Source of the DNA: Halomarina pelagica
GTDB taxonomy: Archaea > Halobacteriota > Halobacteria > Halobacteriales > Haloarculaceae
Reading direction: 5' to 3'
Length of the DNA: 64,000 nucleotides
Assembly (NCBI RefSeq): GCF_024228315.1
Contig: NZ_CP100454.1
Span: 3,224,001 to 3,288,000, forward strand
Of the stretch, positions 16,770-29,313 are shown piece by piece. The notes below the pieces were generated by a model. That model was not told where the DNA came from. It did no database searches and saw only the letters and a program-made list of their open reading frames with translations. The translations under genes were made by a program, and so were the position numbers. Numbering within the stretch: the first letter of the stretch is position 1; each line of letters begins with the position of its first letter.

Positions 16770-17086
16770 ATGGACCTCTCAGACGCGCTCGACCGGCATG
16801 AACGCGAGGTCGACGTCGAGGACCCCACGACGGGACGGGTGGCGGGGATCTCACCCCCGGAGACGGACGCCCGCTCTCTCGGCCCGGACTCTCTCGTTCG
16901 TCTTCGGTTCCTCCGCTCTACTTCGTTCGGGTAGCCGAAATCCGCGTTCGGCCCCTGGCCCCCGGAGATGACCGCATCTAAAACCGCTATGATGGGACGA
17001 GAGTGGTCTTAGATACGTTACGAACGTGAACTCACGACCGGCGAACCGCACGACAAGAATATTGTCTGCTACTACGTAGCACGAAT
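16770..17086. other. Intergenic region between divergent genes
   Basis: About 317 bases carrying the promoters of the minus-strand hydrolase and the plus-strand regulator. No gene was found. The left part is pyrimidine-rich. The right 45 bases hold two palindromes described separately. Base composition changes from very G+C-rich to more A+T-rich here, marking the edge of the accessory region. Confidence 0.5.
17052..17080. promoter_or_regulatory. Two palindromes overlapping the promoter of a winged-helix regulator
   Basis: GACAAGAATATTGTC at 17052-17066 has 5-base arms around an A/T-rich centre that also serves as a TATA-like box about 28 bases before the ATG at 17087. GCTACTACGTAGC at 17068-17080 follows at once. 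Operator-like palindromes over a regulator's own TATA box suggest autoregulation; this is inference from position only. Confidence 0.45.
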
Positions 17087-17875
17087 ATGGATGCAGCCCT
17101 CGACGAGATCAAGTATCTCGCAGCCTCAGCGCACCGCATCGAGGTGATCGACGCACTGGCTGACGGGCCACACAGCCGGGCCGACCTCCGGGCACTGACC
17201 GGGGCATCGTCGTCCACGATCGGGCGGACGTTGGCCGAATTCGAGGATCGGGGGTGGGCCGTACGAAACGGGCATCAGCACAGGGCGACCTCGACAGGAG
17301 CGTTCGTCGCGGAGGAGGTCGTAAGTTTACTTCACCGGATGGAAACCAGACAGAAGCTGCGCGAGGTCGCGCAGTGGCTTCCGACCGAGAAGCTCGGCAT
17401 TACGATCGATGCGTTCTCCGAAGCGGTCGTCACAGTCGACGACACCGACGACCCATACCGGTCCGTCCGTCGCTACGACGACCTGATCGAAGAGGCGGAA
17501 ACGATGCGCGCGTTCGGCACTGCGACGCTCAAGTCGGCCAACGCGGGCACGCTGTTCCGGAACGTCCGGAGCGGTATGGAGACCGAGATCATCTACCCAC
17601 CCCCTATCGTCGAAGCGGTGCTGGACTGGTCCCCCGAAGCGGCCAAGAGAGGACTCGACAGCGGTACCCTCACCATCCTTCTACACGACGCCCTCCCGTG
17701 TGGACTCACGATCTTCGACGACCGTGTCGCGCTCACCGGCTACGATCCGGATACCGGGATGTTACGGGCCATCGTCGACACCGACGCCCCGGAGGCGCGC
17801 GAGTGGGCGACGTCGCTCTACGAGTCCTATCGAGCCGAGGCCCGGCCGCTCGACCCACGTGCTCTCGAAGCCTGA
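17087..17875 (+). CDS. Winged-helix transcriptional regulator with C-terminal sensor-like domain
   Basis: A 262-residue protein. Residues 1-75 form a winged helix (AASAHRIEVIDALADG, then ASSSTIGRTLAEFEDRGW). The remaining 180 residues are a mixed alpha/beta domain typical of haloarchaeal regulators of the FilR1/DUF7343-like group, possibly ligand-binding. It is clearly paralogous to the regulator at 21415: EDRGW, the EVAQW-P motif and the closing LDPR-L are shared. Its own promoter holds two palindromes. Targets are unknown; the SnoaL-like gene 250 bases downstream is the nearest candidate. Confidence 0.8.
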   Translation: MDAALDEIKYLAASAHRIEVIDALADGPHSRADLRALTGASSSTIGRTLAEFEDRGWAVRNGHQHRATSTGAFVAEEVVSLLHRMETRQKLREVAQWLPTEKLGITIDAFSEAVVTVDDTDDPYRSVRRYDDLIEEAETMRAFGTATLKSANAGTLFRNVRSGMETEIIYPPPIVEAVLDWSPEAAKRGLDSGTLTILLHDALPCGLTIFDDRVALTGYDPDTGMLRAIVDTDAPEAREWATSLYESYRAEARPLDPRALEA

Positions 17876-18124
17876 GCCAGGGAGTGCGTCGTGGCCGTGG
17901 GCCTGCTCGCGTGCCGATCACTCTCCTCGATTTCTGTTTCGTCGTCCGGTCGCAAAGCGATCGGTCAGCGGACCGATCGAGTGACCATCCGAACCGAGCG
18001 CGGGTTCCCCACGTGCAGGTGACGACGTTCTTTCGCCCCCTGCAAGTCGCCCAGGGGTTGCGCGAATCCCACTAGGTGCCTATACGTTTCCCGCGCCCGT
18101 ACGGCTGTGCCAGGAGGCGTACCC

Positions 18125-18757
18125 ATGACAGATTCGAAGGAATCGGATGAAACCGGGGCATCAGAGGCGTTGGAAGCCTCGCTTTCCGGAGTTTCGGACG
18201 AGAGTGATGCCCGGAATGTAACGACTCACGATCGACACGATCGTCTCGCTCGTGAACACTTGCGCATCGTGGCTGCCGCCGACTTCGACGCGGTCGATGG
18301 CAACGTCACGCCCGACTACGTCAACCATCGTTCTGCCGACGAGCCGATGGGGACGCGCCAGCGCGGTCCCGACGGATTGAAAGCCACGATCCGCTGGCTG
18401 CACAGAGCCTTCACCGATATACGGTTCGAATTCCACGACGTCATCGTCGACCGAGACCGGGTAGCGGCACTGGTGACCATGCACGGCCAACAGCACGGGC
18501 CGTTCGTAGTACACGACTCGCCCGACGGGGAAGTCACGGACGTGTTCCCATCGATGAATCGAGCGTTCTCCGTCGAACAGACGCACTGGTTTCGGATCGC
18601 CGACGGTGCCGTCGCGGAACACGACGCCGTGCGTGACGATCTCGGCATGGCCAAGCAGCTCGGGTGGATTCCACCGCGACCCGACTACTTGATCCGAATG
18701 GTCCTGGGCCGATGGCGTGAACGCCACGCACAGCGCCGCTTGACGGGTCGGCCATAG
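18125..18757 (+). CDS. SnoaL-like (ester cyclase family) protein
   Basis: A 210-residue protein whose residues about 45-185 form a SnoaL-like/NTF2 fold: AREHLRIVAAADFDAVDG, then the PDYVNHRSADEP turn, and FRIADGAVAEHDAVRDDLGM at the end. The N-terminal 40 residues are acidic and disordered. It has a TATA-like CCTATACGTTT at about 18076-18086 and an unusually clear Shine-Dalgarno AGGAGG at 18110-18115, ten bases before the ATG. SnoaL-like proteins bind small hydrophobic ligands; the reaction is unknown. Confidence 0.75.
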   Translation: MTDSKESDETGASEALEASLSGVSDESDARNVTTHDRHDRLAREHLRIVAAADFDAVDGNVTPDYVNHRSADEPMGTRQRGPDGLKATIRWLHRAFTDIRFEFHDVIVDRDRVAALVTMHGQQHGPFVVHDSPDGEVTDVFPSMNRAFSVEQTHWFRIADGAVAEHDAVRDDLGMAKQLGWIPPRPDYLIRMVLGRWRERHAQRRLTGRP

Positions 18758-18893
18758 CGCGAATGGAATCGGGCGTTATCGGAGGCCGATTGCGTGATTC
18801 CGAACCTCGCGTCGACCGTCTGGCCGACCGAGTAAGTGAGTAACTACGAATAAAACCGAGAAGAGGCCCTTTCTATCAATAACTTCACGATAA

Positions 18894-18998
18894 AAGCAAG
18901 CACAGCTAGCGGAAGAAAATTTGGCTAACTAGCCGTCGATAGAACCCCTGAACGTCCGAACTCGACTACCGCTTGTCCCGTTGTTCCACTTTATTCAG
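18894..18998 (-). repeat. aroQ-3'-end repeat, copy A
   Basis: About 105 bases related to the 3' end and downstream flank of chorismate mutase (native copy at 28935-29041). On the minus strand the right part encodes LNKVEQRDKR followed by TAG at 18966-18968, matching the enzyme's final LNKVEQRESR-stop. The left part keeps the GGAAGAAAATTTGG and CGATAGAACCCCTGAA blocks shared with copies C, D and E. Complementary words CAAGC (18897) and GCTTG (18971) could pair. It lies in the gene-free stretch 18758-19108, which holds nothing else recognisable apart from the promoter at 19081. Confidence 0.75.
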
Positions 18999-19080
18999 AT
19001 AGTGAACTCCACCATGCAAAACTGCGCACGCTACCGCTTCGTTCGCTCTCCGAACGGGTGGCCCATCCACTGGAGCGAAG

Positions 19081-19110
19081 TATTTTACCTGTACACACAC
19101 AAGTGTGTAT
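19081..19110 (+). promoter_or_regulatory. Promoter and palindromic operator of the first antitoxin gene
   Basis: TATTTTAC at 19081-19088 is a TATA-like box. TACACAC (19092-19098) and GTGTGTA (19103-19109) form a perfect 7-base inverted repeat with a 4-base spacer that runs into the start ATG at 19109. This is the position expected for autorepression by the antitoxin. The word TACACAC also precedes the ATG of the second antitoxin (minus strand, 20717). Confidence 0.55.
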
Positions 19111-19378
19111 GGACATGGCGACCAAGACTATCTCGCTCGACGAGGAAGCGTACGAGCGGTTGAAAGCTCGAAAGCAGGAGGGAGAGAGCTTCAGTGATGT
19201 CGTCAAGCGACTCGCTGGAGAACGGTCGTGGAAGGAGATCGCCGGTATTCTGGACGACGAAGAAGCGGATGCCCTCGAAGCCGCCATCGGAGAGGGTCGC
19301 TCCCGGTCTCGAGAGCGGAGCGACCGACTCGCAGACGAGTTCGGCGAAGCCGTCGGGAGTGACGAGAGAGCGGAATGA
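19109..19378 (+). CDS. Antitoxin of VapB type
   Basis: An 89-residue protein (or 87 if started at the ATG at 19115). The N-terminal MATKTISLDEEAYERLK followed by GESFSDVVKRL is the DNA-binding half of VapB antitoxins of the DUF217/AbrB-related group; the acidic C-terminal half should wrap the toxin. The last codons overlap the toxin start (ATGA at 19375-19378), the standard antitoxin-toxin arrangement. A palindrome covers its start region. Confidence 0.85.
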   Translation: MDMATKTISLDEEAYERLKARKQEGESFSDVVKRLAGERSWKEIAGILDDEEADALEAAIGEGRSRSRERSDRLADEFGEAVGSDERAE

Positions 19379-19767
19379 TTCAGGACACGTCCTTCATCGT
19401 CGACCTCCTGCGAGGCGACGAGGACGCTGAGACACTTCTCGATGCGATAGAGAAGGAATCACGCCCACAGAAGGTGTCTTCGATAACGGTACTCGAACTC
19501 TACGAGGGTGTCGCACGTTCCGAGACGCCGAGGGAGAAACGAGAACGGATTCTCGGCGTGCTGGATAGTAAATCCGTCGTCCCCGCCGACCACCCCGTCA
19601 TGCGGAAAGCGGGGAAACTTTCGGGTGAACTGATTACTCGTGGAGAACAGATCGAGCGGGAGGATTGCATCATCGCCGCTACTGCACTCCTGAACGACGA
19701 ACCAGTCGTCACGAGGAACACCGAGCATTTCGAACGCATCGAAAACCTCGATGTGCGGTCGTACTAG
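19375..19767 (+). CDS. vapC: PIN-domain toxin of VapC type
   Basis: A 130-residue PIN-domain ribonuclease. The metal-binding acids appear in order: D4 (IQDTSFIVDLL), E42 (TVLELYEG), and D97 (REDCIIAATAL), with the late NTEHFERI typical of VapC. It would cleave RNA, usually tRNA or rRNA, when freed from its antitoxin. It overlaps the antitoxin by four bases. Such pairs often stabilise mobile or dispensable DNA, which fits its place inside the repeat-bounded segment. Confidence 0.9.
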   Translation: MIQDTSFIVDLLRGDEDAETLLDAIEKESRPQKVSSITVLELYEGVARSETPREKRERILGVLDSKSVVPADHPVMRKAGKLSGELITRGEQIEREDCIIAATALLNDEPVVTRNTEHFERIENLDVRSY

Positions 19768-19871
19768 TCAGGGGGAGACGATACCGACTCTTCTTCGACG
19801 CGCTCCCGTGCGCTCTCAGTAGAGAGACGAACAGGGAAACGAAACGTCACAGGTCGTGATTTCGGATCGAG

Positions 19872-20396
19872 TCAACCGCCCTCGCGTCGCTGTCGAAGCG
19901 TGGCCTTCGCACGCTCGACGTAGGAGTTCGACGACCAACTGCGAGCATCACTCATCTCGCCCAGGAACTCATCAGCAGCGTCAGGTGAGAGCGCGTCGTT
20001 GCGAACCAGCGCAGTGAGAAGGATCGGTGTCGTTACGAGACGGGTTTCGGCCAGCGAGACGTGGACGAGCGCGAGTCTATTGAACTCGTCACAGAGTAGT
20101 TGCACGGCGTCGATTTCGTTCGCCAGCGTGACCGCCGCGTTCTCGCCGTCGTCCAGTGGAAACGTCTCATCCAGTTCGACGGAACGCACCTCAACTGCGG
20201 AGCGACGATCGAGAACCTCTTGCGCCGCCTCACCTGAGGCGTCGTCGTAGGATGCCGTCTCGGTGAGTTCATCGACGACCCGCCTCGGGACAACCACGTT
20301 ATGCGAATCGAGGAGAAGGTCAAGTGGGTTCGGGGAAGCGTCCGCCACTGTCCCGAGGCTAACGAGGGCTGACGTATCGGCGACTAGCAGAACCAT
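19872..20396 (-). CDS. PIN-domain protein, probable toxin of a second pair
   Basis: A 174-residue PIN-domain protein with D7 in LLVADTSALVSLG, the acid pair in VVDELTE, and a third acidic site in LLCDEFNRLALVH. It is longer than VapC and belongs to a group common in haloarchaea. It starts one base after the stop of the upstream ribbon-helix-helix gene, so the two are cotranscribed and very likely a toxin-antitoxin pair. It is convergent with the first vapC. Confidence 0.8.
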   Translation of the reverse strand: MVLLVADTSALVSLGTVADASPNPLDLLLDSHNVVVPRRVVDELTETASYDDASGEAAQEVLDRRSAVEVRSVELDETFPLDDGENAAVTLANEIDAVQLLCDEFNRLALVHVSLAETRLVTTPILLTALVRNDALSPDAADEFLGEMSDARSWSSNSYVERAKATLRQRREGG

Positions 20397-20717
20397 CTAC
20401 GAGTCGGCCAGCTCCTCCGCAACCTCGTCCACGAACGCATCGGTCAGTTGCTCTTTCAGCAGTCGGAAGTTAGCGGCCTCCTCGTGACCGACGAGGCCCT
20501 TCAGTTCCTCGAACGTGATGTCGTCGTCGTAGAAGGCGTCTGCGACCTCCTGTTTCATTTCGTCGGAGTGCGCGGCGTCCCGCAGGTAGTCCCGAAGCGC
20601 GGAGATGAGGATGTCCGTCCGATCCGTCTCGAGCACCGCAGCGAGCGCGTCAGCCCGGTCCACCAGCCCTCTCGGTGCGCGGAACTGCACGCGCTTCTTC
20701 TCGGACCCGGAACTCAT
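20397..20717 (-). CDS. Ribbon-helix-helix antitoxin
   Basis: A 106-residue protein started at the ATG at 20717 (the longer frame adds a Gly/Pro-rich stretch from the promoter region). Residues 8-55 (KKRVQFRAPRGLVDRADALA, then DRTDILISALRDYL) form a ribbon-helix-helix dimerisation domain. The acidic C-terminal half should bind the PIN partner downstream. TACACAC lies directly before the ATG, as in the first antitoxin gene, suggesting similar autoregulation. Confidence 0.8.
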   Translation of the reverse strand: MSSGSEKKRVQFRAPRGLVDRADALAAVLETDRTDILISALRDYLRDAAHSDEMKQEVADAFYDDDITFEELKGLVGHEEAANFRLLKEQLTDAFVDEVAEELADS

Positions 20718-20821
20718 GTGTGTACATTGTGAGTGCAGGAGCAAAACGCTTGCCCTCCCATCACTGCCCCATCCCCCGGGGCCACCGGGAGGAAATATGG
20801 TGTTTTTCACCGAACTCGGAC

Positions 20822-21030
20822 CGAAAGACCAGCAATCAGAAGAATATCTTCGAGACTAAATGGGTGCTATACGATTCGTATCGCCCGAATTCGGCTACCG
20901 ATTGCTCCGTTGCTCGACCTTGTTCAGGTAACTGAAATCCGTAACGGATTTGGGCGAAAGAAAGTCATATTTCGAATCTGAAACCCTCGAATACGACAGG
21001 TAGAATCGATTACTCGACACCGCATATAAA
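20822..21030 (-). repeat. aroQ-3'-end repeat, copy B, with extended flank shared with copy D
   Basis: The core at 20822-20930 carries, on the minus strand, LNKVEQRSNR and a TAG at 20896-20898. Complementary words AGCAATC (20831) and GATTGCT (20900) could form a stem. To the right, bases 20931-21030 align without gaps to the flank of copy D: CTGAAATCCGTAACGGATTT, then CCCTCGAA at the same offset, and CATATAAA exactly 102 bases from the TGTTCAG in both copies. The shared flank suggests both belong to related elements. Confidence 0.75.
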
Positions 21031-21119
21031 CAATAGAGTGCAGCGGTTAGCGGTCCGCCGCGAACTACCCTCAGAAACGCCCGTCAACCGACCGGCGATC
21101 GCGTCCACGATGGTAATGT

Positions 21120-21240
21120 GCCGTGGCTCTGTTGAGACCCACAAACGGTGATATCTTTGGACACCTGTACTGAATACAGGGCGCGAATGCAGCATGAGAT
21201 TCGGCTCGATCTGAGAAAGTGGTGATCGCTCAGTACAGGA
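21120..21240. mobile_element. Possible insertion-sequence end remnant
   Basis: The run GGCTCTGTTGAGACCC at about 21124 resembles terminal sequences of some haloarchaeal insertion sequences, and GAGACCC-CACA recurs in direct orientation near 21239. No transposase reading frame survives. This is recognition from memory of IS termini and is weak. Confidence 0.2.
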
Positions 21241-21383
21241 GACCCCACATACCGTAGCAAATCTCGATCTACCTGACTTTTGCCAAAAACTGTGTGCAAG
21301 ATACAGAGGGAGTACCAAAAGAGGCTCGGGCAAGGATGACGACCACGGCGTAGACCCGGGGCCTGAGCACCCAACTCGCTAAT

Positions 21384-21398
21384 CGCTAAATGGTAGCG
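21384..21398. promoter_or_regulatory. Palindrome upstream of the second winged-helix regulator
   Basis: CGCTA-AATGG-TAGCG is a 5-base inverted repeat ending 16 bases before the ATG at 21415. It sits where an autoregulatory operator would, as in the paralogous regulator at 17087, but the sequence differs. Confidence 0.35.
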
Positions 21399-21414
21399 CG
21401 TCTAACGCCCAGAA

Positions 21415-22230
21415 ATGAGTCTACCATTCGACGACATCCAGTCGTCTCTCGAAGAGATCGAGTTTCTCGCTCGGTCACCGAACCGTATCAGAGTGCTCGA
21501 CACGCTCACAGCGGAGCCGATGAAGCGACATGAGATCGAAGCTGGCACCGGCATTTCGAGAGCGACTCTCGCCCGCATCCTTGACGACTTCGAAGATCGG
21601 GGATGGGTGATACGAGAGGGCAAGCAATACGAGACGACACCCGTCGGCAACTACGTCGCGCAAGAATTCACGGATGTCTTGAAGCGCTTCGCGCCCGTTC
21701 CGGGACTCAACGAGGTGGCGCAGTGGTTCCCTGAGGAGGGGTTCGATTTCGACCTTGGATGTCTGGCCGGGGCGGAGATCATCCGTCCAGCCAGGAGCGA
21801 CGCGCTCGCACCGACGACACACATTACTCGCCGGCTCCGGACCGCCGACCGGGTTCGAGTCATCTCGTATTCCCACCTCTCCGACGTCATGGAGGTGTGC
21901 TGGCGAGCAACCGCCGAGAGAACCCTCGAACTCGAAAGCATCGTTGATCGGGGAGTGCTCGAACGGATCGAAACCGATCCCCGAATGCTCGATCACGCGC
22001 AGGAGATGGTCGAGTCCGGGCAGGCGAAGTTCTTCTGGCACGAGGGTCCAATCCCGGTCACCGTGTTCCTTATCGACGACGTGGTACTGCTGTGTCTGTC
22101 CGGTGACGAAGGGGCTCCACACGCGGTGATAGAAACTTCAGACGAGACGGTCCACTCGTGGGCAGAATCGATTATCGATACCTATCGCTGTGAGGGAGAA
22201 GTACTCGACCCGAGACTGCTCACGGAGTGA
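21415..22230 (+). CDS. Winged-helix transcriptional regulator (paralogue of the one at 17087)
   Basis: A 271-residue regulator. Residues 10-80 are the winged helix (LARSPNRIRVLDTLTAEP, then GISRATLARILDDFEDRGW). The rest is the same alpha/beta sensor-like domain as the 17087 protein, including EVAQWFP and the closing LDPRLL. Having two paralogues 4 kb apart, one inside and one outside the repeat array, suggests duplication or separate capture. It may regulate the methyltransferase gene that starts 73 bases downstream. Confidence 0.8.
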   Translation: MSLPFDDIQSSLEEIEFLARSPNRIRVLDTLTAEPMKRHEIEAGTGISRATLARILDDFEDRGWVIREGKQYETTPVGNYVAQEFTDVLKRFAPVPGLNEVAQWFPEEGFDFDLGCLAGAEIIRPARSDALAPTTHITRRLRTADRVRVISYSHLSDVMEVCWRATAERTLELESIVDRGVLERIETDPRMLDHAQEMVESGQAKFFWHEGPIPVTVFLIDDVVLLCLSGDEGAPHAVIETSDETVHSWAESIIDTYRCEGEVLDPRLLTE

Positions 22231-22303
22231 GAGCCGCTTACGGTGTGAGAGATTCTCTGTACGCGTCTATACCACGCTGGAGCACCTCTCTCCGAGTGGA
22301 AGC

Positions 22304-23110
22304 ATGACTCCCGACACACTCTCTCCAGACGAGCGAGCAAAACGCGTGTGGTCTCTCGGATCGTATCCCGATATCGCGCCGAATTTCCTGGGCATGGCGG
22401 CTCATCTCGTCGAGGCTGTCGGGATCGGTACAACCGACACCGTCCTCGACGTTGGCTGCGGGACCGGGAACGCCGCCATCACCGCCGCTCGTCGAGGAGC
22501 ACGCGTCACAGGGTTGGACATCGTCCCGGCGATGCTCGATGAAGCATGTGAGAACGCGACGATCACTGACATTGAGACGATCGACTGGCGGGAGGGCTCC
22601 GCGACGGATCTTCCATTCGAAGATGACGTGTTCGACGTCACCCTCTCGTGTCTCGGCCACATGTTCGCAGAACCGCCCGATGACGCTGGTCAAGAACTGC
22701 TCCGTGTGACGCGACCGGGTGGACGAATCGCGTTCACCTCGTGGACGCCCGATGGCCTCGTTCCCGCCATGGGTGCAGTACTGAACAACTATCTCCCGCC
22801 GAATCCCAATCCGCCGGAGCCACCGTTTCTATGGGGCGACCCCGATGTCGTCCGTGAGCGAGTGGGTGGCGGGGTCGAGAGCCTCGTGTTCGAGACCGGA
22901 ACGGCGCTGACTCCCGTGCTGTCACCGGCCCACTACTGGGAGAAGGCAATCACGGAGTCGGGACTGTTCATCGTGGCGCTCGACACGGTTGCCGAGGCCG
23001 ATCACCCGGCACTCCGCGAGGAGATGATCGAGACGATCGAGCACTTTTTCGACGCCAGTCAGAACGCGGTCCCCATGAACTATGTACTGACGACGGCGAC
23101 GGTCACCTGA
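22304..23110 (+). CDS. Class I SAM-dependent methyltransferase
   Basis: A 268-residue methyltransferase with SAM-binding loop VLDVGCGTGNAAI at about residues 44-56, acidic strand end VTGLDIV, and the post-II region SATDLPFEDDVFDVT, as in the UbiE/Methyltransf_11 group. It starts at the ATG at 22304. It closes segment B-C. The substrate is unknown; the regulator upstream is the only functional neighbour. Confidence 0.85.
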   Translation: MTPDTLSPDERAKRVWSLGSYPDIAPNFLGMAAHLVEAVGIGTTDTVLDVGCGTGNAAITAARRGARVTGLDIVPAMLDEACENATITDIETIDWREGSATDLPFEDDVFDVTLSCLGHMFAEPPDDAGQELLRVTRPGGRIAFTSWTPDGLVPAMGAVLNNYLPPNPNPPEPPFLWGDPDVVRERVGGGVESLVFETGTALTPVLSPAHYWEKAITESGLFIVALDTVAEADHPALREEMIETIEHFFDASQNAVPMNYVLTTATVT

Positions 23111-23795
23111 CCGGATCGTCCACCTCCGTCGACGGTGGGTGCGAGAAAATCTCGCTGTCTCTATGGAGTCTTCTCTTCTCGTTTGCAGTATCAGCGATTG
23201 AGGGATATGCGCCGTGTATCTTGCACGGGTTCAAGAATATCTATCACAACTGGTAGGAATCCCACCGGTCAATGCGCAGATTCTCTTTCGGGTAGTTCAG
23301 ATCCAATCACGCGGAATAAATGGCGACGGCTTGCTGTATATATCCTCTAAATGCAGCCAAGCGGCTCCTATTTAACTGAAGGATTCAAGGACTCTGATTC
23401 TCGTGACGCATCGACCGGGTAGCGATCCCTACCAATAGATGGACTCGTGAGCGGACGTCCTCAAATATTTCGTCAGTCGCCGCAAGGTCACTCTTTGATT
23501 CAGTGCCCGAGATGGCTATGGAACTGTGTTATCGTTCACCGATCCGGGAATGAAAGAGCAACTGCCGGAAGAAGATTTGACCTCCCGACCGCCAATAGAA
23601 GCCCTGAAACAGCCGAATTCGACTGCCGGTTGCTCCGTTGCTCTACTTTGTTCAGGTTTTGGACTGACGTTACAGATTTCGTTTACTTTGCCGCTACTTT
23701 CCCATGGCAGTGAGTTTTGAATATTGGATAAATATCATATATGGTGATGTGAATGATGTGGTTAGTGTCAAGCGCCGGGAGAAACATCCGAACGG
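23111..23795. other. Gene-free stretch holding repeat copy C
   Basis: About 685 bases, noticeably A+T-rich. No supported gene was found; short frames at 23135-23720 have no recognisable features. Repeat copy C occupies 23551-23656, and a TATA-like CATATATGG lies near 23736. The left 430 bases look like decayed DNA of unknown origin. Confidence 0.5.
23551..23656 (-). repeat. aroQ-3'-end repeat, copy C
   Basis: It shares with the native copy the blocks GAGCAACTGCCGG, GAAGAAGATTTGACC, CCGACCGCCAATAGAAG, CTGAAACAGCCGAATTCG and CTCTACTTTGTTCAG. On the minus strand it reads LNKVEQRSNR, but the stop is changed to CAG (23623-23625), the only copy without TAG. Complementary words GAGCAAC (23556) and GTTGCTC (23629), plus CCGG/CCGG, could form a stem. 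Confidence 0.75.
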
Positions 23796-24365
23796 TTACT
23801 GTTCGAGTGCGGCGATACAGTCCTCACGAATCTCCCACAGTTCATCCGTAGAACATTCTGGACGTTCTTGCTCACCCCATTCAGCCAAATACCGTCGATG
23901 GAGCCGAACCTTGTATGCTCCGATTTGAGGCGGCTGAATCGTTTCCTCGTACAATAACTCACCGACAGGCACACTTGCATTCGGTTTGGTAAAGTCGAAT
24001 CGTTGACTTTGGGTGCTAAGGTAACAGTGTGCTTCCGGAATCGATTCAAGTCCATAATCAGACAAAACTCGACCGACACCGGAGGTGTTTCGCTCGCTCA
24101 TCTCGTAGATACCGAGTGTCAGTTGGAATGTGTCGACACCGTGTTCCGTGGCGAGTTGAGCGAGGAGTGCATGTTTCGTGCTGCACGTTCCTCGCTCTTC
24201 CACTAAAACCAGCGGCAGGTTGGTCTTGTTTGACGTACGACCATATGGGAGGTCTCGAACGTGCTCAACGGCTCGATGGAAATCAGTTATACCGCGTTCA
24301 CAGAATGCGGCAGAAATCATTCCGTAAGAACGAATCGAGAAATTCGGAAATTGTTTGGACTCCAT
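23796..24365 (-). CDS. Transglutaminase-like superfamily protein
   Basis: A 189-residue protein from the ATG at 24365 (a TTG six codons upstream is less likely). The segment ERGTCSTKHALLAQLATEHG has the catalytic-cysteine context of transglutaminase-like cysteine proteases; candidate His and Asp residues lie later (PEAHCYLST, FDFTKPNAS). Codon use is far less G/C-biased than in the chromosome flanks. It is the only gene of segment C-D. It might crosslink, hydrolyse or modify proteins; no partner is evident. Confidence 0.65.
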   Translation of the reverse strand: MESKQFPNFSIRSYGMISAAFCERGITDFHRAVEHVRDLPYGRTSNKTNLPLVLVEERGTCSTKHALLAQLATEHGVDTFQLTLGIYEMSERNTSGVGRVLSDYGLESIPEAHCYLSTQSQRFDFTKPNASVPVGELLYEETIQPPQIGAYKVRLHRRYLAEWGEQERPECSTDELWEIREDCIAALEQ

Positions 24366-24819
24366 ATATGTTACCGTCCTCAATATTGTGAGGCGGTATA
24401 GTTTCTAGGGTATTAGGTGTAGTGCGATACTTCACCTAACTCCTTGACCCGGAAAGATAACACTGCAGACGGAAGAAGAATCGACTATCCGACCACCAAT
24501 AGAAGCTCTGAGACTGTCGAATTCGACTATCTGCTTTCCCGCTGCTCTACTTTGTTCAGATAGGTGAAATCTGTAATGGATTGGAGCGAAAATAACACAA
24601 CTCTGGGAACTCAACCCCTCGAAAATCCACCACACGGGCGTCCAGTCGCGCCTACATATAAATGAGTGACCGTAGGAGAGATCACTGGAAAAGAGTCACC
24701 CCGGTCATCTGAACTTGAGCGACGACAGTGATGAAACGAAGTGTGTCCTAATCGGAATGTTCGCGACGAAACTAGCCGCTCCCAACCGGCTGGCGGTTGC
24801 CTATTCTCAGAGTGGCAGG
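24366..24819. other. Gene-free stretch holding repeat copy D
   Basis: About 450 bases between the transglutaminase-like gene and the first HxlR gene. It contains the A+T-rich promoter of the former, repeat D with its extended flank, and about 150 bases (24665-24819) in which no gene or structure was recognised. Confidence 0.5.
24450..24664 (-). repeat. aroQ-3'-end repeat, copy D, with extended flank shared with copy B
   Basis: The core at 24450-24560 reads on the minus strand LNKVEQRESR followed by TAG at 24528-24530, identical in peptide to the native aroQ end. Complementary words GCAGA (24465) and TCTGC (24530) could pair. The right flank continues to align with copy B: GTGAAATCTGTAATGGATT, CCCTCGAA at the same offset, and CATATAAA at 24655, 102 bases from TGTTCAG as in B. 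Confidence 0.75.
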
Positions 24820-25188
24820 TCAGGCACAGGACGACGTCTCTTGGAGATGCTCGTCTCCCCACTCGTCCATCGCCTCGATTATGGGTTCTAATGAGGCTCC
24901 TTGCTCGGTCAAGGAGTACTCGACGCGGAACGGTTTCTCGCTCACGATCGCCCGGTTCACCAATCCGTTCTCCTCTAAGTCCTCCAGACTGTTTGAGAGG
25001 ACGGTACTCGAGATCGTGCCGATCTCGGCTTTGAGGGCGTTGAACCCCAGGGGGCCGTGCGCGAGCAAGCGGTGAACGATGACCGGATGCCACTTCTTCC
25101 CGATGAGGTGGGCCGTGCACGTCACGGTACACCAGTCGTCGTCAGCACACCACGACGCGACACACTCCTGCTCGGTCTTTTTGCTCAT
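24820..25188 (-). CDS. HxlR-type winged-helix regulator
   Basis: A 122-residue HxlR regulator from the ATG at 25188: IGKKWHPVIVHRLLAHGPLGF is followed by the recognition helix region ISSTVLSNSLEDLEENGLV and the wing EYSLTEQG. The N-terminus has four cysteines (CVASWC, CTVTC) that could sense redox or electrophiles, as HxlR-family YodB/HypR do. A TATA-like TAATAATAATAG (minus strand, 25215-25226) lies about 30 bases before the start. It is divergent from the DoxX gene and is probably its regulator. Confidence 0.85.
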   Translation of the reverse strand: MSKKTEQECVASWCADDDWCTVTCTAHLIGKKWHPVIVHRLLAHGPLGFNALKAEIGTISSTVLSNSLEDLEENGLVNRAIVSEKPFRVEYSLTEQGASLEPIIEAMDEWGDEHLQETSSCA

Positions 25189-25282
25189 CCTGTCCGTCGG
25201 TAGTGGATGTGGAGCTATTATTATTACGAGACTAAGTTGCCAACCCACAGTAGATCAGCAAACAGTACCACCTCAGTCTGCC

Positions 25283-25299
25283 CTTCGCTTACGCTTATT
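25283..25299 (+). promoter_or_regulatory. Promoter of the DoxX gene (same type as at 25774 and 26323)
   Basis: CTTCGCTTACGCTTATT aligns with CTTGTCTTAGCCTTATT at 25774-25790 and CTTGTCTTAGCTTTACG at 26323-26339. In the latter two the motif starts exactly 41 bases before the chosen start codon; here the same spacing points to 25323/25324, where the DoxX frame has ACG. Confidence 0.5.
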
Positions 25300-25322
25300 C
25301 GAGTCCTCGGACACCAGCCACT

Positions 25323-25730
25323 ACGGAAGCGACATATACAGACCGCGTTCGGTCGATACGACGGTCGATACCAGACTGGGCGCTGCTCGGCCTCCGTCTC
25401 GTCGTCGCCGCCCTCATAGCGAAACCAGCACTCGGCAAGTTCCTGACATACGGGGGTTCCGTTGCGTTCTTCGATGCCATCGGGATGCCGGCTCCGGCGG
25501 CGATGGTCATCGTCGCTGGAGTCGTCGAAGTGGGAGCAGTCGCACTGCTACTTGTCGGTACAGGCGAGCGACTCGCAGCCCTCTCGCTCATCCCTGTGAT
25601 GATCGTTGCGATACTGTACGTTGGACCAGACTGGAAGAACGTCGGCGTCCTGTTCGGCTCTCTAGCGGTACTCGTGCTCGGAGCCGATTCGACTCCCATC
25701 AAGTGGTCGCCCCACAAACTCCGGGGTTAG
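25323..25730 (+). CDS. DoxX family membrane protein with apparent ACG start
   Basis: The frame reads as a full DoxX protein of about 135 residues (WALLGLRLVVAALIAKPALG, then KFLTYGGSVAFFDAIGMP and three more membrane helices). However, no ATG, GTG or TTG occurs in frame between the stop at 25251 and the ATG at 25485, which lies inside helix two. The ACG at 25323, next to GAA, stands where the promoter spacing predicts the start. Either ACG is used, the start was mutated, or only an 81-residue form is made. DoxX proteins act in thiosulfate/thiol redox or membrane stress. Confidence 0.6.
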   Translation, partial: TEATYTDRVRSIRRSIPDWALLGLRLVVAALIAKPALGKFLTYGGSVAFFDAIGMPAPAAMVIVAGVVEVGAVALLLVGTGERLAALSLIPVMIVAILYVGPDWKNVGVLFGSLAVLVLGADSTPIKWSPHKLRG

Positions 25731-25773
25731 CTCGCCCTCACCTAGTCCGGATCATCGAGCCCATCAGCTCGGC

Positions 25774-25790
25774 CTTGTCTTAGCCTTATT
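25774..25790 (+). promoter_or_regulatory. Promoter motif CTTGTCTTAGCCTTATT
   Basis: It carries a TATA-like TTAGCCTTA. It is nearly identical to the element at 26323, with the same 41-base distance to the start codon (GTG 25815). This supports leaderless transcription and common control of the two genes. Confidence 0.55.
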
Positions 25791-25814
25791 GCGACGCTTG
25801 TGGTCGCTTCGAAC

Positions 25815-26282
25815 GTGACACAACACAGACTCAGGGACGGATTCGGCTACGGTGTCGTCGCGACAATTGCGATGTCTGTCCTCATGCTAATGGCACTGAT
25901 CTCGGGGCTGTCGCCGATGCCTCAGCCGGTCCCGAAGGCCGTCGTTGAGCAACTCTTCAGTGCCGGGCTCCCGAAGCCAGCGATGATGGCACTCGCGATC
26001 GGCCTCCACCTCGGCTATGGCGGGCTGATCGGCGCGGTCCTCGCACGAATCGCCCGCCCGGTGACCCTGCTGAAGGGCCTCGCACTCGGCGTCGGGCTCT
26101 GGGCGATGATGCAGGTCACGTTCCTCCCGTTCCTCGGATGGGGCCTGTTCGGGATGGCGATCACGCCGAAGATCGCGGTTGCAACGCTCGTCTTGCACCT
26201 CGTGTACGGTGGCGTGCTTGGGTGGGCGCTCGATCACGACACGTCCTCTACGGGTAGGACGTCACCGACAACGACAGACTGA
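25815..26282 (+). CDS. Four-helix membrane protein, DUF6789-like
   Basis: A 155-residue protein from the GTG at 25815 (GTG at 25800 is also possible; promoter spacing favours 25815). Four membrane helices are visible at about 10-32, 50-75, 80-105 and 113-140, with HLGYGGLIGAVLARIAR and the partly repeated HLVYGGVLGWALDHD, suggesting an internal duplication. It resembles DUF6789-type haloarchaeal membrane proteins of unknown role. It belongs to the DoxX/SelT/glutaredoxin cluster by promoter similarity. Confidence 0.65.
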   Translation: MTQHRLRDGFGYGVVATIAMSVLMLMALISGLSPMPQPVPKAVVEQLFSAGLPKPAMMALAIGLHLGYGGLIGAVLARIARPVTLLKGLALGVGLWAMMQVTFLPFLGWGLFGMAITPKIAVATLVLHLVYGGVLGWALDHDTSSTGRTSPTTTD

Positions 26283-26291
26283 TTCGATCCT

Positions 26292-26309
26292 GGTTAGGGC
26301 AGGCTAACC
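26292..26309. promoter_or_regulatory. Inverted repeat upstream of the SelT-like gene
   Basis: GGTTAG-GGCAGG-CTAACC is a perfect 6-base inverted repeat placed 14 bases before the promoter motif at 26323. It could be an operator for an HxlR protein of the cluster or a weak terminator for the gene ending at 26282. Confidence 0.35.
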
Positions 26310-26322
26310 CGGTCAGGGAACC

Positions 26323-26339
26323 CTTGTCTTAGCTTTACG
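26323..26339 (+). promoter_or_regulatory. Promoter motif CTTGTCTTAGCTTTACG
   Basis: A copy of the element at 25774, starting 41 bases before the ATG at 26364. The shared sequence and spacing were used to choose the start of the SelT-like gene over the ATG at 26343. Confidence 0.55.
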
Positions 26340-26363
26340 GCGATGACAGTTCAAGAGTGTAGT

Positions 26364-26612
26364 ATGACGTCAGTCGAAATCGAATACTGCGTTCCCTGCG
26401 GACTGCTCGACCCGGCGGTCCAAACCCAGACACGGCTCCTTGACGAATTCGGCCAGGATCTGGATGGTGTGACGCTCGTCCCCGGCCATGGTGGTGTGTT
26501 CGTCGTCCGAGCCGATAGCGAGACGATCTGGGACAAAGACGTCCACGGCGCTGACCTTGATCTCGAATTGGTCGCCGAGGCTGTCGAGGACCGTCTTCAG
26601 GTGACCGCCTAA
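26364..26612 (+). CDS. SelT/SelW/SelH (Rdx) family thioredoxin-fold protein
   Basis: An 82-residue protein with the CxxC redox centre CVPC at residues 9-12 (EIEYCVPCGLLDPAV) and the later WDKDVHGADLDLELVAEAV segment of the Rdx family. Archaeal members carry Cys in place of selenocysteine and are thought to be thiol oxidoreductases. It is followed 18 bases later by a glutaredoxin-like gene, so the two form a small redox operon. Confidence 0.85.
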   Translation: MTSVEIEYCVPCGLLDPAVQTQTRLLDEFGQDLDGVTLVPGHGGVFVVRADSETIWDKDVHGADLDLELVAEAVEDRLQVTA

Positions 26613-26630
26613 TCACCTTCCCATGATCAT

Positions 26631-26891
26631 ATGTTGGAACTCTACCAGGCAGAGGCGTGTGGCTACTCGCAGAAGGTGCGCGAAACGCTGACCGACCTTG
26701 GTGTCTCGTATGTGGTTCACAACCCACGGTCAGCAGCCGGTGAGCCCCGGAACGAACAGACTCACGACGAGCTTCGAACATTGGGCGGACGGGACCAGAT
26801 TCCGTTCCCCGTCGATCACCAGCGAGGCGTCACAATGTACGAAAGCGACGACATCGTGGACTATCTACGAACACACTATTCACGAGAGTGA
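26631..26891 (+). CDS. Glutaredoxin/GST-N-type thiol protein
   Basis: An 86-residue thioredoxin-fold protein: LELYQAEACGYSQKVRETL has a CxxS (CGYS) active site of monothiol type. The cis-proline region is IPFPVDH and the end YESDDIVDYLRTHY is typical of glutaredoxin-like GST N-terminal domains. It is cotranscribed with the SelT-like gene. It probably reduces mixed disulfides or carries a thiol ligand. Confidence 0.85.
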   Translation: MLELYQAEACGYSQKVRETLTDLGVSYVVHNPRSAAGEPRNEQTHDELRTLGGRDQIPFPVDHQRGVTMYESDDIVDYLRTHYSRE

Positions 26892-26926
26892 CGCCCGAAA
26901 CGGGGTGACTGCCCTATCCGGAGTGT

Positions 26927-27127
26927 ATGAGCTGGCGGCACCCTTCGGTCCCCGACAACGTCGAACTGGTCTCGGCCCGCACCGGCTGGGTTGAGCGGAG
27001 ATGCGGCTAGCGTCCCGAGATACTCGACGCCAGCACCGTGGAGAACGCTCAACCAATTATTGAGACCGTCACCGAGTGTTTCCAGTGCGGCAGTAACCGA
27101 GAATACGAACCACCAAACCCCACATGA
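26927..27127 (+). pseudogene. Small CxxC protein gene interrupted by an in-frame TAG
   Basis: One reading frame runs from the ATG at 26927 (MSWRHPSVPDNVELVSARTG) to a TAG at 27008-27010, then continues open as RPEILDASTVENAQPIIETV and a CFQC motif to a TGA at 27125-27127 that overlaps the ATG of the transporter gene (ATGA). The protein-like content after the stop and the operon-style overlap suggest a 66-codon gene broken by a nonsense mutation, or a short gene whose 5' half has decayed. The family is unrecognised; the CxxC suggests metal or redox binding. Confidence 0.45.
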
Positions 27128-28068
27128 ACGAATCCACCACATCGATGTCGGACACCGTCGTGACTCGTGTTGCAGGCTTCGTCGACGAGTATCTGCTCCT
27201 CTGGGTGCTTCTTTCAGTCGGCATCGGGTTGCTCTTCCCATCCATCGCAGTTCTCACTCCATTGTCGACGCCGATTCTGGCGGTCATGATCGGAGCGGTC
27301 TCGTTGACCCTCGCCCCCGAACGATTTCGGCGACTGCGTGGGCGAACCGTACTCACGATTCTCGTCGTGCAGATGGGAATGCCGCTGCTCGCATTTGTCA
27401 TCGCCCGGACGCTCGGGCTCTCCCTTGCATTCACCGCAGGGTTCGTCGTCCTCGGTGCGGTGACGCCCGAACTCGTCACGCCCACGATGACCGAACTCAG
27501 TGGTGGGGACACTGCTCTTGCGACCGTTGTCCTGGTCCTGGTTGGCCTCGGTACACTCGTGTTCGTCCCGGGAGTCGTCACCGTCGTCTTAGGCACCTCG
27601 GTCGCGGTTGAGCCGCTGGTAATCGTCGAGCAGTTGTTGCTCGCTGTGGTCCTCCCGATGAGCCTCGCAGTCGGGGCTCGGTACCGGTGGCCCGACCCCA
27701 TCGGACAGTACGACGACCTCTACCCGTCGGTATCGGGTCTCATGGTGATCCTCATCATCGGCATCGTCGCTGCGGCCAACGCGTCGCTCGTTCGAGAAAG
27801 TGGGAGTGTCCTCCTCCTCGTCTTGCTCGGTGCAGTCGTCCTCAACGGGACCGGCTACGTCGCGGGGTGGCTCGCCAGTTGGACGTTCTCCCGTCCGGAG
27901 CGAATCGCGGCGACACTGTCGATAGGAATGCGTGACTTCGCCGTCGCCGCTGCACTCCTCGTCGGAGCCGGGTTCCCGACGGCAGCAACGCTTCCTGCTA
28001 TCGTGTTCGGCATCGTCGAGATGACGACGAGTGCGGGGCTCGTGAAGTTGTTCAGCCGATCATCCTGA
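27124..28068 (+). CDS. BASS-family (bile acid:sodium symporter-like) transporter
   Basis: A 314-residue membrane protein with nine to ten helices. Two family signatures are visible: GAVTPELVTPTMTELSGG around residue 115 and ERIAATLSIGMRDFAVAAAL around residue 260. These form the crossover and ion-binding regions of BASS/ACR3-type carriers. It should move an organic anion or metalloid with Na+ or H+; the ACR3 cysteine pattern is absent, so arsenite is not proposed. It ends 9 bases inside the convergent HxlR gene. Confidence 0.8.
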   Translation: MNESTTSMSDTVVTRVAGFVDEYLLLWVLLSVGIGLLFPSIAVLTPLSTPILAVMIGAVSLTLAPERFRRLRGRTVLTILVVQMGMPLLAFVIARTLGLSLAFTAGFVVLGAVTPELVTPTMTELSGGDTALATVVLVLVGLGTLVFVPGVVTVVLGTSVAVEPLVIVEQLLLAVVLPMSLAVGARYRWPDPIGQYDDLYPSVSGLMVILIIGIVAAANASLVRESGSVLLLVLLGAVVLNGTGYVAGWLASWTFSRPERIAATLSIGMRDFAVAAALLVGAGFPTAATLPAIVFGIVEMTTSAGLVKLFSRSS

Positions 28069-28446
28069 ACGTTCTCCTCGGGGCTCCTGTTCGTCCACCC
28101 ATTCGAGGAGCGGGCCGAGTTTCTCTCTGAGTTCGTCGCCCTTATCGGTGAGTTCGTACTCGACGCGGGGTGGGATCTCCGCGTACTGTTCTCGGGAGAG
28201 GTACCCTGCCTTAACGAAGTCGTCGAGGCGGGTCGAGAGTGTCGAACTGCTCACGTCGCCGAAGGCGTTTTCTATGTCGCCGTACCTGGCGGGACCGATT
28301 GCGCCGACGATGCAGATCACCTGCATGGCGTAGCGGCGACTCAGCAGGTCCATCACCCCACCCAGCGGGCAGTAACAGTCTATCTCGGTGTTCTTCGATT
28401 TGGAGGCGTCGGTTGATGTGTCGGGTATCTTCGCCATAGCTTTCAT
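28060..28446 (-). CDS. HxlR-type winged-helix regulator (second)
   Basis: A 128-residue protein from the ATG at 28446 (ATG at 28437 is an alternative). DCYCPLGGVMDLLSRRYAMQ is the HxlR opening with its conserved cysteine. VSSSTLSTRLDDFVKAGYL is the recognition region and VEYELTDKG the wing. It overlaps the transporter's last codons on the opposite strand and is divergent from the CC-motif gene, with which it shares a promoter region. It likely controls one or both. Confidence 0.85.
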   Translation of the reverse strand: MKAMAKIPDTSTDASKSKNTEIDCYCPLGGVMDLLSRRYAMQVICIVGAIGPARYGDIENAFGDVSSSTLSTRLDDFVKAGYLSREQYAEIPPRVEYELTDKGDELREKLGPLLEWVDEQEPRGERSG

Positions 28447-28481
28447 CCACCGCAGTTCGTTCAATACTTCGGACTTGACAG

Positions 28482-28496
28482 TATAAGCGTTTCCGG
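28482..28496. promoter_or_regulatory. Shared divergent promoter
   Basis: CTTGACAGTATAAG reads as a TATA element in both directions. It lies about 30 bases before the plus-strand ATG at 28517 and about 40 bases before the minus-strand ATG at 28446. A regulator bound here would control both genes at once. Confidence 0.45.
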
Positions 28497-28516
28497 ATTC
28501 GAAGTAATTCTGTACC

Positions 28517-28855
28517 ATGCGTCAGAACGACTCGACACCAGATGTTGCATGTACGCTGACTGAAGAACAGGAGAAGGAACGGAGCGAGGAAGTTCGCTCG
28601 CGTCTCATCACCAGCTACGTCGGGTTCGACGAGTTCGAAAACGGTCTGAGGATTCGTTTCGACGGAACTGAGGAGTCGCTGCTAGCGGTCGCAGAATTCA
28701 CGTCGGCTGAACTGAAGTGTTGTGCGTTCGCCGAGTACGCGATCTCGGTATCGCCGCCGTACGAGGAGACAGTTCTGACTATCACCGGCCCCGAAGGGAC
28801 GAGACAGATATTCCGCGATGGTCTGGTTGACCGACTGGAGGTAGAAGCCTCATAG
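28517..28855 (+). CDS. Small protein with CC motif and LTI-x-GPEG end
   Basis: A 112-residue soluble protein containing SAELKCCAFAEYAISV and the closing TITGPEGTRQIF. The arrangement resembles small bacterial proteins encoded next to mercury or arsenic resistance genes, which also have an E-x-K/Q-CC-x-F motif and a TGPEG tail. The adjacent cysteines suggest metal or metalloid binding. It is divergent from the second HxlR gene and is the last gene before the aroQ junction. Confidence 0.6.
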   Translation: MRQNDSTPDVACTLTEEQEKERSEEVRSRLITSYVGFDEFENGLRIRFDGTEESLLAVAEFTSAELKCCAFAEYAISVSPPYEETVLTITGPEGTRQIFRDGLVDRLEVEAS

Positions 28856-28934
28856 ACGCAGTACCGAAAAACGGTTTAGCACGGTAGAAACTGACATAGT
28901 GACTCTATTCTGCGTTTCGTTAAGATAGCGATGG

Positions 28935-29041
28935 TCGAAAGAGCAACCGCCGGGAGAAGATTTAGCCACCCGACCAGCAATAGAGGGTCTGAAACAGTCG
29001 AATTCGGCTACCTGCTCTCCCTTTGCTCAACTTTGTTCAAC
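28935..29041 (-). repeat. aroQ-3'-end repeat, native copy E
   Basis: This is the 3' end of the intact aroQ gene (codons for LNKVEQRESR, TAG at 29008-29010) plus about 73 bases downstream. Blocks shared with copies A-D include AGAAGATTTAGCC, CCGACCAGCAATAGA, CTGAAACAGTCGAATTCG and CTCAACTTTGTTCAA. Complementary words AGAGCA (28940) and TGCTCT (29013) could pair. The similarity stops at the TTCAA within the gene, as expected if only the 3' end was copied. Confidence 0.75.
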
Positions 29042-29313
29042 TCGATCAACAGCCGAAAGACCGCCTTCACGAGGTTCGAGTCCACGTCGAATCGTTCCGC
29101 GTTCTCGCCCGCGCGTTCCATCACCTGCTCCTCTTGCGCCTCGTCGGTCGTGGCGAGCCCGCGCTCCCGTTTCACGCCGGCGATGGACTCCGCGACGTAG
29201 GTTCGCTGGGCGATGAGTTCCACGATCTCCCGGTCGATGCTCTCTATCTCCTCGCGGAGCGCGTCGAGGCTCACGTCCTCCGAGCGCCCGTCTGTTGCGT
29301 TCTCGTCAACCAT
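29008..29313 (-). CDS. aroQ: Chorismate mutase (AroQ class)
   Basis: A 101-residue monofunctional AroQ: an acidic N-terminus, then LDALREEIESIDREIVELIAQR, VAESIAGVKRERG, and the helix ending FRLLIELNKVEQRESR. It converts chorismate to prephenate for Phe and Tyr synthesis. The ATG at 29313 lies 43 bases inside the end of the shikimate kinase gene, a tight overlap implying coupled translation. Its last ten codons are the conserved part of the dispersed repeats A-E, so it appears to be the integration target of the island. Confidence 0.92.
   Translation of the reverse strand: MVDENATDGRSEDVSLDALREEIESIDREIVELIAQRTYVAESIAGVKRERGLATTDEAQEEQVMERAGENAERFDVDSNLVKAVFRLLIELNKVEQRESR

Follow-up and report, generated by a model that had tools for sequence, protein, structure and literature searches.

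Metal resistance of haloarchaea was reviewed in 2013, when arsADRC and arsR2M were listed and merA and merB had been annotated in one haloarchaeal genome each; bile acid carriers are not mentioned there (PMC3600143). The present analysis deals with a gene cluster at positions 24820 to 28855 of a 64,000-nucleotide stretch of Halomarina pelagica (NZ_CP100454.1, positions 3,224,001 to 3,288,000), referred to as the window. The cluster encodes two regulators of the HxlR family (HxlR1 and HxlR2), the membrane proteins DoxX and DUF6789, a SelT/SelW-like protein (Rdx), a glutaredoxin-like protein (Grx), a carrier of the bile acid:sodium symporter family (BASS) and a small three-cysteine protein (CC). 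It is a real cluster of two linked modules, which moves horizontally among haloarchaea. Module A comprises HxlR1/DoxX-DUF6789-Rdx-Grx, module B the divergent pair HxlR2/CC, usually together with BASS. With a probability of about two in three, the cluster was acquired horizontally as a resistance module that is under HxlR control and directed at a thiophilic metal(loid); the most likely target is mercury, in organic or inorganic form, or trivalent (methylated) arsenic.

Comparison with described mercury and arsenic systems

The closest described systems are the bacterial MerR-CC/BASS genes and the mer and ars operons. The former are located in mer and ars islands, for example in Rhodococcus ruber, Streptomyces liliifuscus and on Cytobacillus plasmids. 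Like the window, they combine a three-Cys CC protein with an adjacent carrier of the bile acid:sodium symporter family and a metal-type regulator. The bacterial regulator, however, belongs to the MerR family and is often fused to CC, whereas the window contains HxlR regulators. In addition, the bacterial loci lack the HxlR1/DUF6789/Rdx/Grx module, and their carrier is ACR3-like, whereas that of the window is PanS-like.

In the case of the mer operon (merR, merT, merP, merA, merB), the common element is merB, which was found with CC, HxlR2 and BASS in relatives and behind the same operator in Halorussus and Natrinema. In contrast, the window contains no MerR-family regulator (both are HxlR), no merB and no merA above the cut-off, and merT and merP were not found. 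The ars operon, including the haloarchaeal arsADRC and arsR2M of Halobacterium NRC-1 (PMC3600143), shares with the cluster a CC-ArsM fusion present in two haloarchaea and a carrier from the Pfam family of ACR3. It differs in that ArsR, ArsA, ArsC and a true ACR3 are missing in the window, whose BASS protein is free of cysteine.

In the literature searched, outside of which most subscription papers lie, no description was found of the CC family, of HxlR proteins in connection with organomercurials, of an organomercurial lyase with BASS or of integration at chorismate mutase genes in archaea. Metal(loid)-resistance modules as such are already known; new is a probable module of this kind with HxlR control and an unnamed three-Cys family.

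Domains were assigned using Pfam and NCBIfam profiles with their gathering or cut-off scores as thresholds. The following features were identified in the cluster:

24820–25188, minus strand: HxlR1, winged-helix regulator (Pfam HxlR 2.8e-26, 91.6 bits, gathering score 20.8)
25282–25297, plus strand: motif CCTTNNCTTANNYTTA, copy 1 of three in the window, before DoxX
25323–25730, plus strand: DoxX membrane protein (Pfam DoxX 2.4e-13)
25773–25788, plus strand: motif CCTTNNCTTANNYTTA, copy 2, before DUF6789
25815–26282, plus strand: DUF6789-like membrane protein, start at 25800 or 25815 (Pfam DUF6789 1e-6)
26322–26337, plus strand: motif CCTTNNCTTANNYTTA, copy 3, before Rdx
26364–26612, plus strand: Rdx (SelT/SelW-like), thioredoxin fold with CVPC, probable start 26364 (Pfam Rdx 5e-16, 59.1 bits, gathering score 22.6)
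26631–26891, plus strand: Grx, glutaredoxin/GST_N-like with a single Cys, CGYS (Pfam GST_N_3 1.2e-11, Glutaredoxin 1.2e-5)
26892–27123, no strand: intergenic stretch without a supported gene
27124–28068, plus strand: BASS (SBF) carrier of the BASS/PanS branch (Pfam SBF 1.8e-11, 44.5 bits, gathering score 24.3)
28060–28437, minus strand: HxlR2 regulator (Pfam HxlR 1.3e-17, 63.9 bits, gathering score 20.8)
28438–28516, no strand: conserved HxlR2/CC intergenic operator region, ACTTCGGACTTGACAGTATAA... (DNA alignment of 12 loci)
28517–28855, plus strand: CC protein, 112 residues, three-Cys family without a name in Pfam or NCBIfam

Thus, all genes named in the initial annotation are present side by side, with Pfam support for each except CC, which matched no model in Pfam or NCBIfam. 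The exception is a "broken CxxC gene" that had been placed at about 26.9–27.12 kb. No conserved open reading frame was found for this stretch in L005, L006 or L008 (L-numbers denote loci). A genuine small protein with CPVC or CPIC occupies the slot between Grx and BASS in L030, L037 and L046, but a BLAST search with it against the window revealed no similarity to positions 26892–27123. The broken gene was therefore rejected. The two HxlR genes had also been taken as the outer bounds of the cluster; both are confirmed, but CC is located beyond HxlR2, and the unit is naturally delimited by two 112-bp repeats (24448–24559 and 28929–29040). Three coding starts are also corrected, that of DoxX to 25323, that of Rdx to 26364 and that of HxlR2 probably to 28437.

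Gene order, control regions and metal(loid) partners

The order HxlR1/DoxX-DUF6789-Rdx-Grx-BASS-HxlR2/CC is repeated in Haloferax sp. Q22 (L005) and in Haladaptatus halobius (L006), where the CC gene is divergent. The genes are reshuffled but remain linked in Halobacterium noricense (L030) and others. DUF6789 is conserved in L005, L006, L029, L048 and L137 and missing in H. noricense and others, and module A occurs with a different carrier, BASS2, in L137 and L048. In a survey of 292 haloarchaeal genomes, which was extended by further loci including plasmid records, CC was sporadic (17 genomes). Rdx-family proteins were detected in 201 genomes, and the cluster type of Rdx (at least 89 bits) in eight, six of which have CC close by (genome co-occurrence P=4e-7). 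The same gene order in unrelated haloarchaea shows that the genes are not juxtaposed by chance. The initial annotation had named missing co-occurrence as counter-evidence, and the gene set was instead found in unrelated genera.

The window is haloarchaeal chromosomal DNA with a G+C content of about 70% and a dip at roughly 17–29 kb. This low-G+C stretch, with its repeats and toxin-antitoxin genes, could suggest an unstable island in which unrelated genes came together by chance. Such an origin has next to no probability: it is already refuted by the same order in distant genera and replicons, and is further opposed by the three shared promoter motifs and the co-occurrence P values.

The motif CCTTNNCTTANNYTTA was found in the window exclusively upstream of DoxX, DUF6789 and Rdx and in none of 100 shuffled sequences. 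In a slightly relaxed form it occurs at the equivalent places in L005, L006, L048 and L137, with 0 matches in 787 kb of other haloarchaeal DNA. The copies are presumably promoter plus operator elements of one regulon, that of HxlR1. The 79-bp region between HxlR2 and CC is strongly conserved in 12 loci. Since this DNA is conserved but non-coding and Met28 of HxlR2 is invariant (numbering from 28518), HxlR2 probably starts at 28437. The same operator sequence precedes merB, followed by CC, in Halorussus (L028) and Natrinema (L029), which places merB under the same control region there.

The gene merB (PF03243) could be identified in 34 of the 292 genomes. Seven genomes have both merB and CC (P=0.0013), and in five of them the distance is within about 1.3 kb (adjacency P about 5e-12). 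Counting plasmid records and Natrinema, merB adjoins CC/HxlR2 in nine loci, among them the plasmid loci L029, L030, L031 and L032. The Pfam assignment of the haloarchaeal proteins is strong (MerB 7.9e-17). In a weak profile alignment (E 0.5) with E. coli MerB (1s6l), a Cys-x-x-Asp and a Cys further along are retained; these Cys and Asp positions are the catalytic residues of MerB. A phmmer search with one MerB homologue and with CC against solved structures gave no matches. In L131 (5583–7598, genome G003) an HxlR2-like regulator, merB and BASS adjoin without CC, another combination of the same parts.

With regard to arsenic, CC is fused to the N-terminus of ArsM in two haloarchaea (L043, 7876–9135, and L044, 8046–9203, both minus strand), and the ArsM part reaches 334.7 bits compared to a cut-off of 263. 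In Rhodococcus, Streptomyces and Mycobacterium, CC forms the C-terminal part of MerR regulators, which are followed by BASS, and several of these loci adjoin ars genes or alkylmercury lyase. Stand-alone CC genes adjoin merA, merRTPA, arsABCDR or arsM-acr3 in Peribacillus, Janthinobacterium, Cytobacillus and Adhaeribacter, and a MerR gene, thioredoxin and CcdA in Rhizobium. A heavy-metal P-type ATPase was found near CC in L027, L028, L046 and L048.

Two further ArsM candidates in the window genome were considered. On contig C6 (L162, 89237–90016) an ArsM homologue above the cut-off contains a TAG inside the match and is possibly a broken or misread gene. The methyltransferase at 22190–23110 of the window was rejected as ArsM with at most 67 bits against cut-offs of at least 158.

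Conserved cysteines, the carrier and the proposed mechanism

In HxlR1 four cysteines (C9, C14, C20, C24) are invariant in all 10 homologues, and in HxlR2 three (C48, C50, C69, numbered as above) in all 25. Typically, members of the HxlR family have a single redox cysteine. All 37 CC-family sequences compared, which come from haloarchaea, Actinomycetota, Bacillota, Pseudomonadota and Bacteroidota, contain C12, E65, C68 and C69. Because reading frames containing "CC" were given preference, C68 and C69 were partly favored, which does not apply to C12 and E65. AlphaFold modelling of the CC protein on six sequences reached a mean predicted local distance difference test (pLDDT) score of 48. Together with a putative three-thiolate site in CC, the four and three invariant cysteines of the regulators fit a system that senses and captures a thiophilic metal(loid).

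The same regulators could alternatively belong to a general electrophile or disulfide stress regulon, in which HxlR proteins of the YodB/HypR/QorR type would respond to quinones or aldehydes through a cysteine, DoxX, Rdx and Grx would repair thiols, and the link to metals would be incidental. In bacteria, such HxlR regulators act as redox sensors, both HxlR proteins of the cluster match the RrpA/RrpB redox regulator models of NCBIfam with scores below the cut-off, and Rdx and Grx are thiol proteins. Nevertheless, this explanation is unlikely, since four and three invariant cysteines exceed the single redox cysteine, CC is tied to merB, arsM and MerR, and the loci share no recurrent quinone reductase or aldehyde enzyme. 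The detoxification of a thiol-reactive compound suggested by the initial annotation, metalloids included, agrees with the co-occurrence of the gene set and with the company of CC (merB, arsM, merRTPA, ars). This narrows the candidate compounds to thiophilic metal(loid)s; nothing specific for quinones or free thiols was found. Of the thiol proteins on which that suggestion was based, the cysteines of CVPC, CGYS and CC are conserved in homologues, and only the broken CxxC gene lacks support.

The CVPC motif of Rdx is invariant in all 13 loci, and the Cys of CGYS in Grx in all eight homologues. As Rdx belongs to the SelT/W/H family, a cluster for selenium or tellurium handling around this protein might be considered, but it is very improbable: the motif is CxxC rather than CxxU in 13 of 13 loci, no SelD, SelA or tellurite gene recurs, and in a family as common in haloarchaea as Rdx, membership by itself tells little. 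Rdx as a selenoprotein was ruled out, as CxxC is found everywhere and the TGA flagged in genome G219 lies off the motif.

The BASS carrier contains no cysteine in any of 28 loci, so that metal binding by its own thiolates is impossible and a conjugate or product is the more likely cargo. Its best NCBIfam match is PanS (67.5 bits, far below the cut-off of 400), no ACR3 match was found in NCBIfam, and the nearest solved structures are of the ASBT type, bile acid:sodium symporters. The PanS match and these structures would fit an importer for organic acids, with the remaining genes serving only to control it. However, a different, distant ACR3-like carrier takes the BASS slot in L046, L048 and L137 (BASS2 in the latter two), and the bacterial context is metal resistance; organic-acid uptake is thus a poor candidate with little probability. 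Since the ACR3-like carrier favors export, the direction of BASS transport is probably outward by analogy, and the uptake considered in the initial annotation finds no contextual support.

From the conserved residues and gene contexts we infer metal binding, induction, substrate and transport direction, and the resistance module might work as follows. The metal(loid) would bind to the cysteine clusters of HxlR1 and HxlR2 and thereby release repression. Release of HxlR2 would allow the CC protein to be made (and merB in relatives), while release of HxlR1 would lead to the expression of the DoxX, DUF6789, Rdx and Grx genes via the repeated promoter motif. CC could trap the metal(loid) with three thiolates (C12, C68, C69), and Rdx and Grx might regenerate thiols or release the metal from its adducts with low-molecular-weight thiols. 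The BASS carrier would then move the conjugate or product across the membrane, probably outward.

Several observations weigh against such a resistance function. The window genome contains no MerB (PF03243) and no MerA above the TIGR02053 cut-off; as only relatives below it were found, a MerA in this genome was rejected, and a classical pathway for organomercury would lack components here. The genes merB and CC can occur apart, CC being absent from most merB genomes, and bacterial metal islands gather many unrelated functions, so that the context of CC there is suggestive only. The carrier is free of cysteine and closer to PanS/ASBT than to ACR3, and many homologous BASS genes stand alone. Finally, DoxX lacks its ATG: positions 25323–25325 read ACG, whereas ATG is found in six homologous loci, at a site that fits a leaderless start. 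Apart from this, the reading frame is intact, so that in this genome DoxX may be translated inefficiently or its start codon may be lost.

Cassette-like array at the 3′ end of the chorismate mutase gene

The module entered this genome as a single unit of a 12-kb cassette-like array (16901–29040). The array is located at the 3′ end of the chorismate mutase gene, a housekeeping gene, is bounded by copies of that 3′ end and consists of the following elements:

16901–24447, no strand: remaining array, whose units encode a SnoaL-like protein with a regulator, two toxin-antitoxin pairs, a methyltransferase with a regulator, and an uncharacterized protein
24448–24559, plus strand: 112-bp att-like repeat, left bound of the cluster unit, chorismate mutase 3′ end (read on the minus strand) plus downstream DNA
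28929–29040, plus strand: 112-bp att-like repeat, right bound, overlapping the intact chorismate mutase 3′ end
29008–29310, minus strand: chorismate mutase gene, whose 3′ end is the insertion site

On its minus strand the repeat encodes the last codons of chorismate mutase (...LNKVEQRESR*). This protein was found in 58 of 59 relatives, and its gene shows synteny with shikimate kinase. More copies of the repeat are located at about 23655, 20927 and 18998, and a degenerate one at ~16930. One unit of the array contains a protein of 195 amino acids (23796–24383, minus strand) without a match in Pfam or NCBIfam.

Additional copies of the repeat in the same orientation were detected downstream of chorismate mutase in 12 of 20 other genomes inspected, compared to 0 in 784 kb of background; the comparison of the array covered loci L139–L158 and L164–L171. 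At least two copies of the repeat core occur in 117 of the 292 haloarchaeal genomes (hand count), nearly all on one strand, with ~6 matches in total for the reversed control pattern. The VapBC-type toxin-antitoxin cassettes (antitoxin plus PIN; 19112–20717 in the window) recur at the site in other genera with 72–92% identity and without a comparable match in the background (L139, 906–1748; L166, 667–1620; L170, 4074–5012; L150, 14707–15353; L171, 1687–2336). A sister species has one cassette and the outer flank in common with the window and lacks the cluster. The homologous clusters of other genomes lack the 112-bp repeat at their flanks, which indicates that the module was captured here and does not depend on this site. 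In L167 (2191–7680) a 5.5-kb unit lies between two copies of the site; by eye its genes resemble a metal P-type ATPase and a cupredoxin, maybe a second metal-resistance cargo.

The array is similar to the cassette arrays of integrons in its tandem units of the same orientation with one site each, its mostly toxin-antitoxin or adaptive cargo and the recurrence of cassettes across genera. It differs from them in that the site is the 3′ end of chorismate mutase and that no tyrosine recombinase of the IntI type was found in or near the array. No integrase was found within the array, and the PF00589 matches listed for this genome are all distant from it. As a tentative proposal with somewhat less than an even chance, the haloarchaeal chorismate mutase 3′ end may be a class-wide capture site, at which a trans-acting recombinase would insert cassettes without an integrase one behind the other: toxin-antitoxin pairs and, in this genome, a metal(loid)-resistance operon. 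Such an integron-like archaeal platform would hold the cluster as one larger cassette.

The array is a more novel lead than the cluster itself. If it functions in the way implied by the repeats, cassette capture in haloarchaea takes place at a widespread site that is undescribed in the papers searched. For the cluster, the fusions to ArsM and MerR and the operator common with merB link the unnamed three-Cys CC family to metal(loid) defence in archaea and four bacterial phyla. The cluster also suggests that haloarchaea may employ HxlR proteins in place of the bacterial MerR or ArsR.

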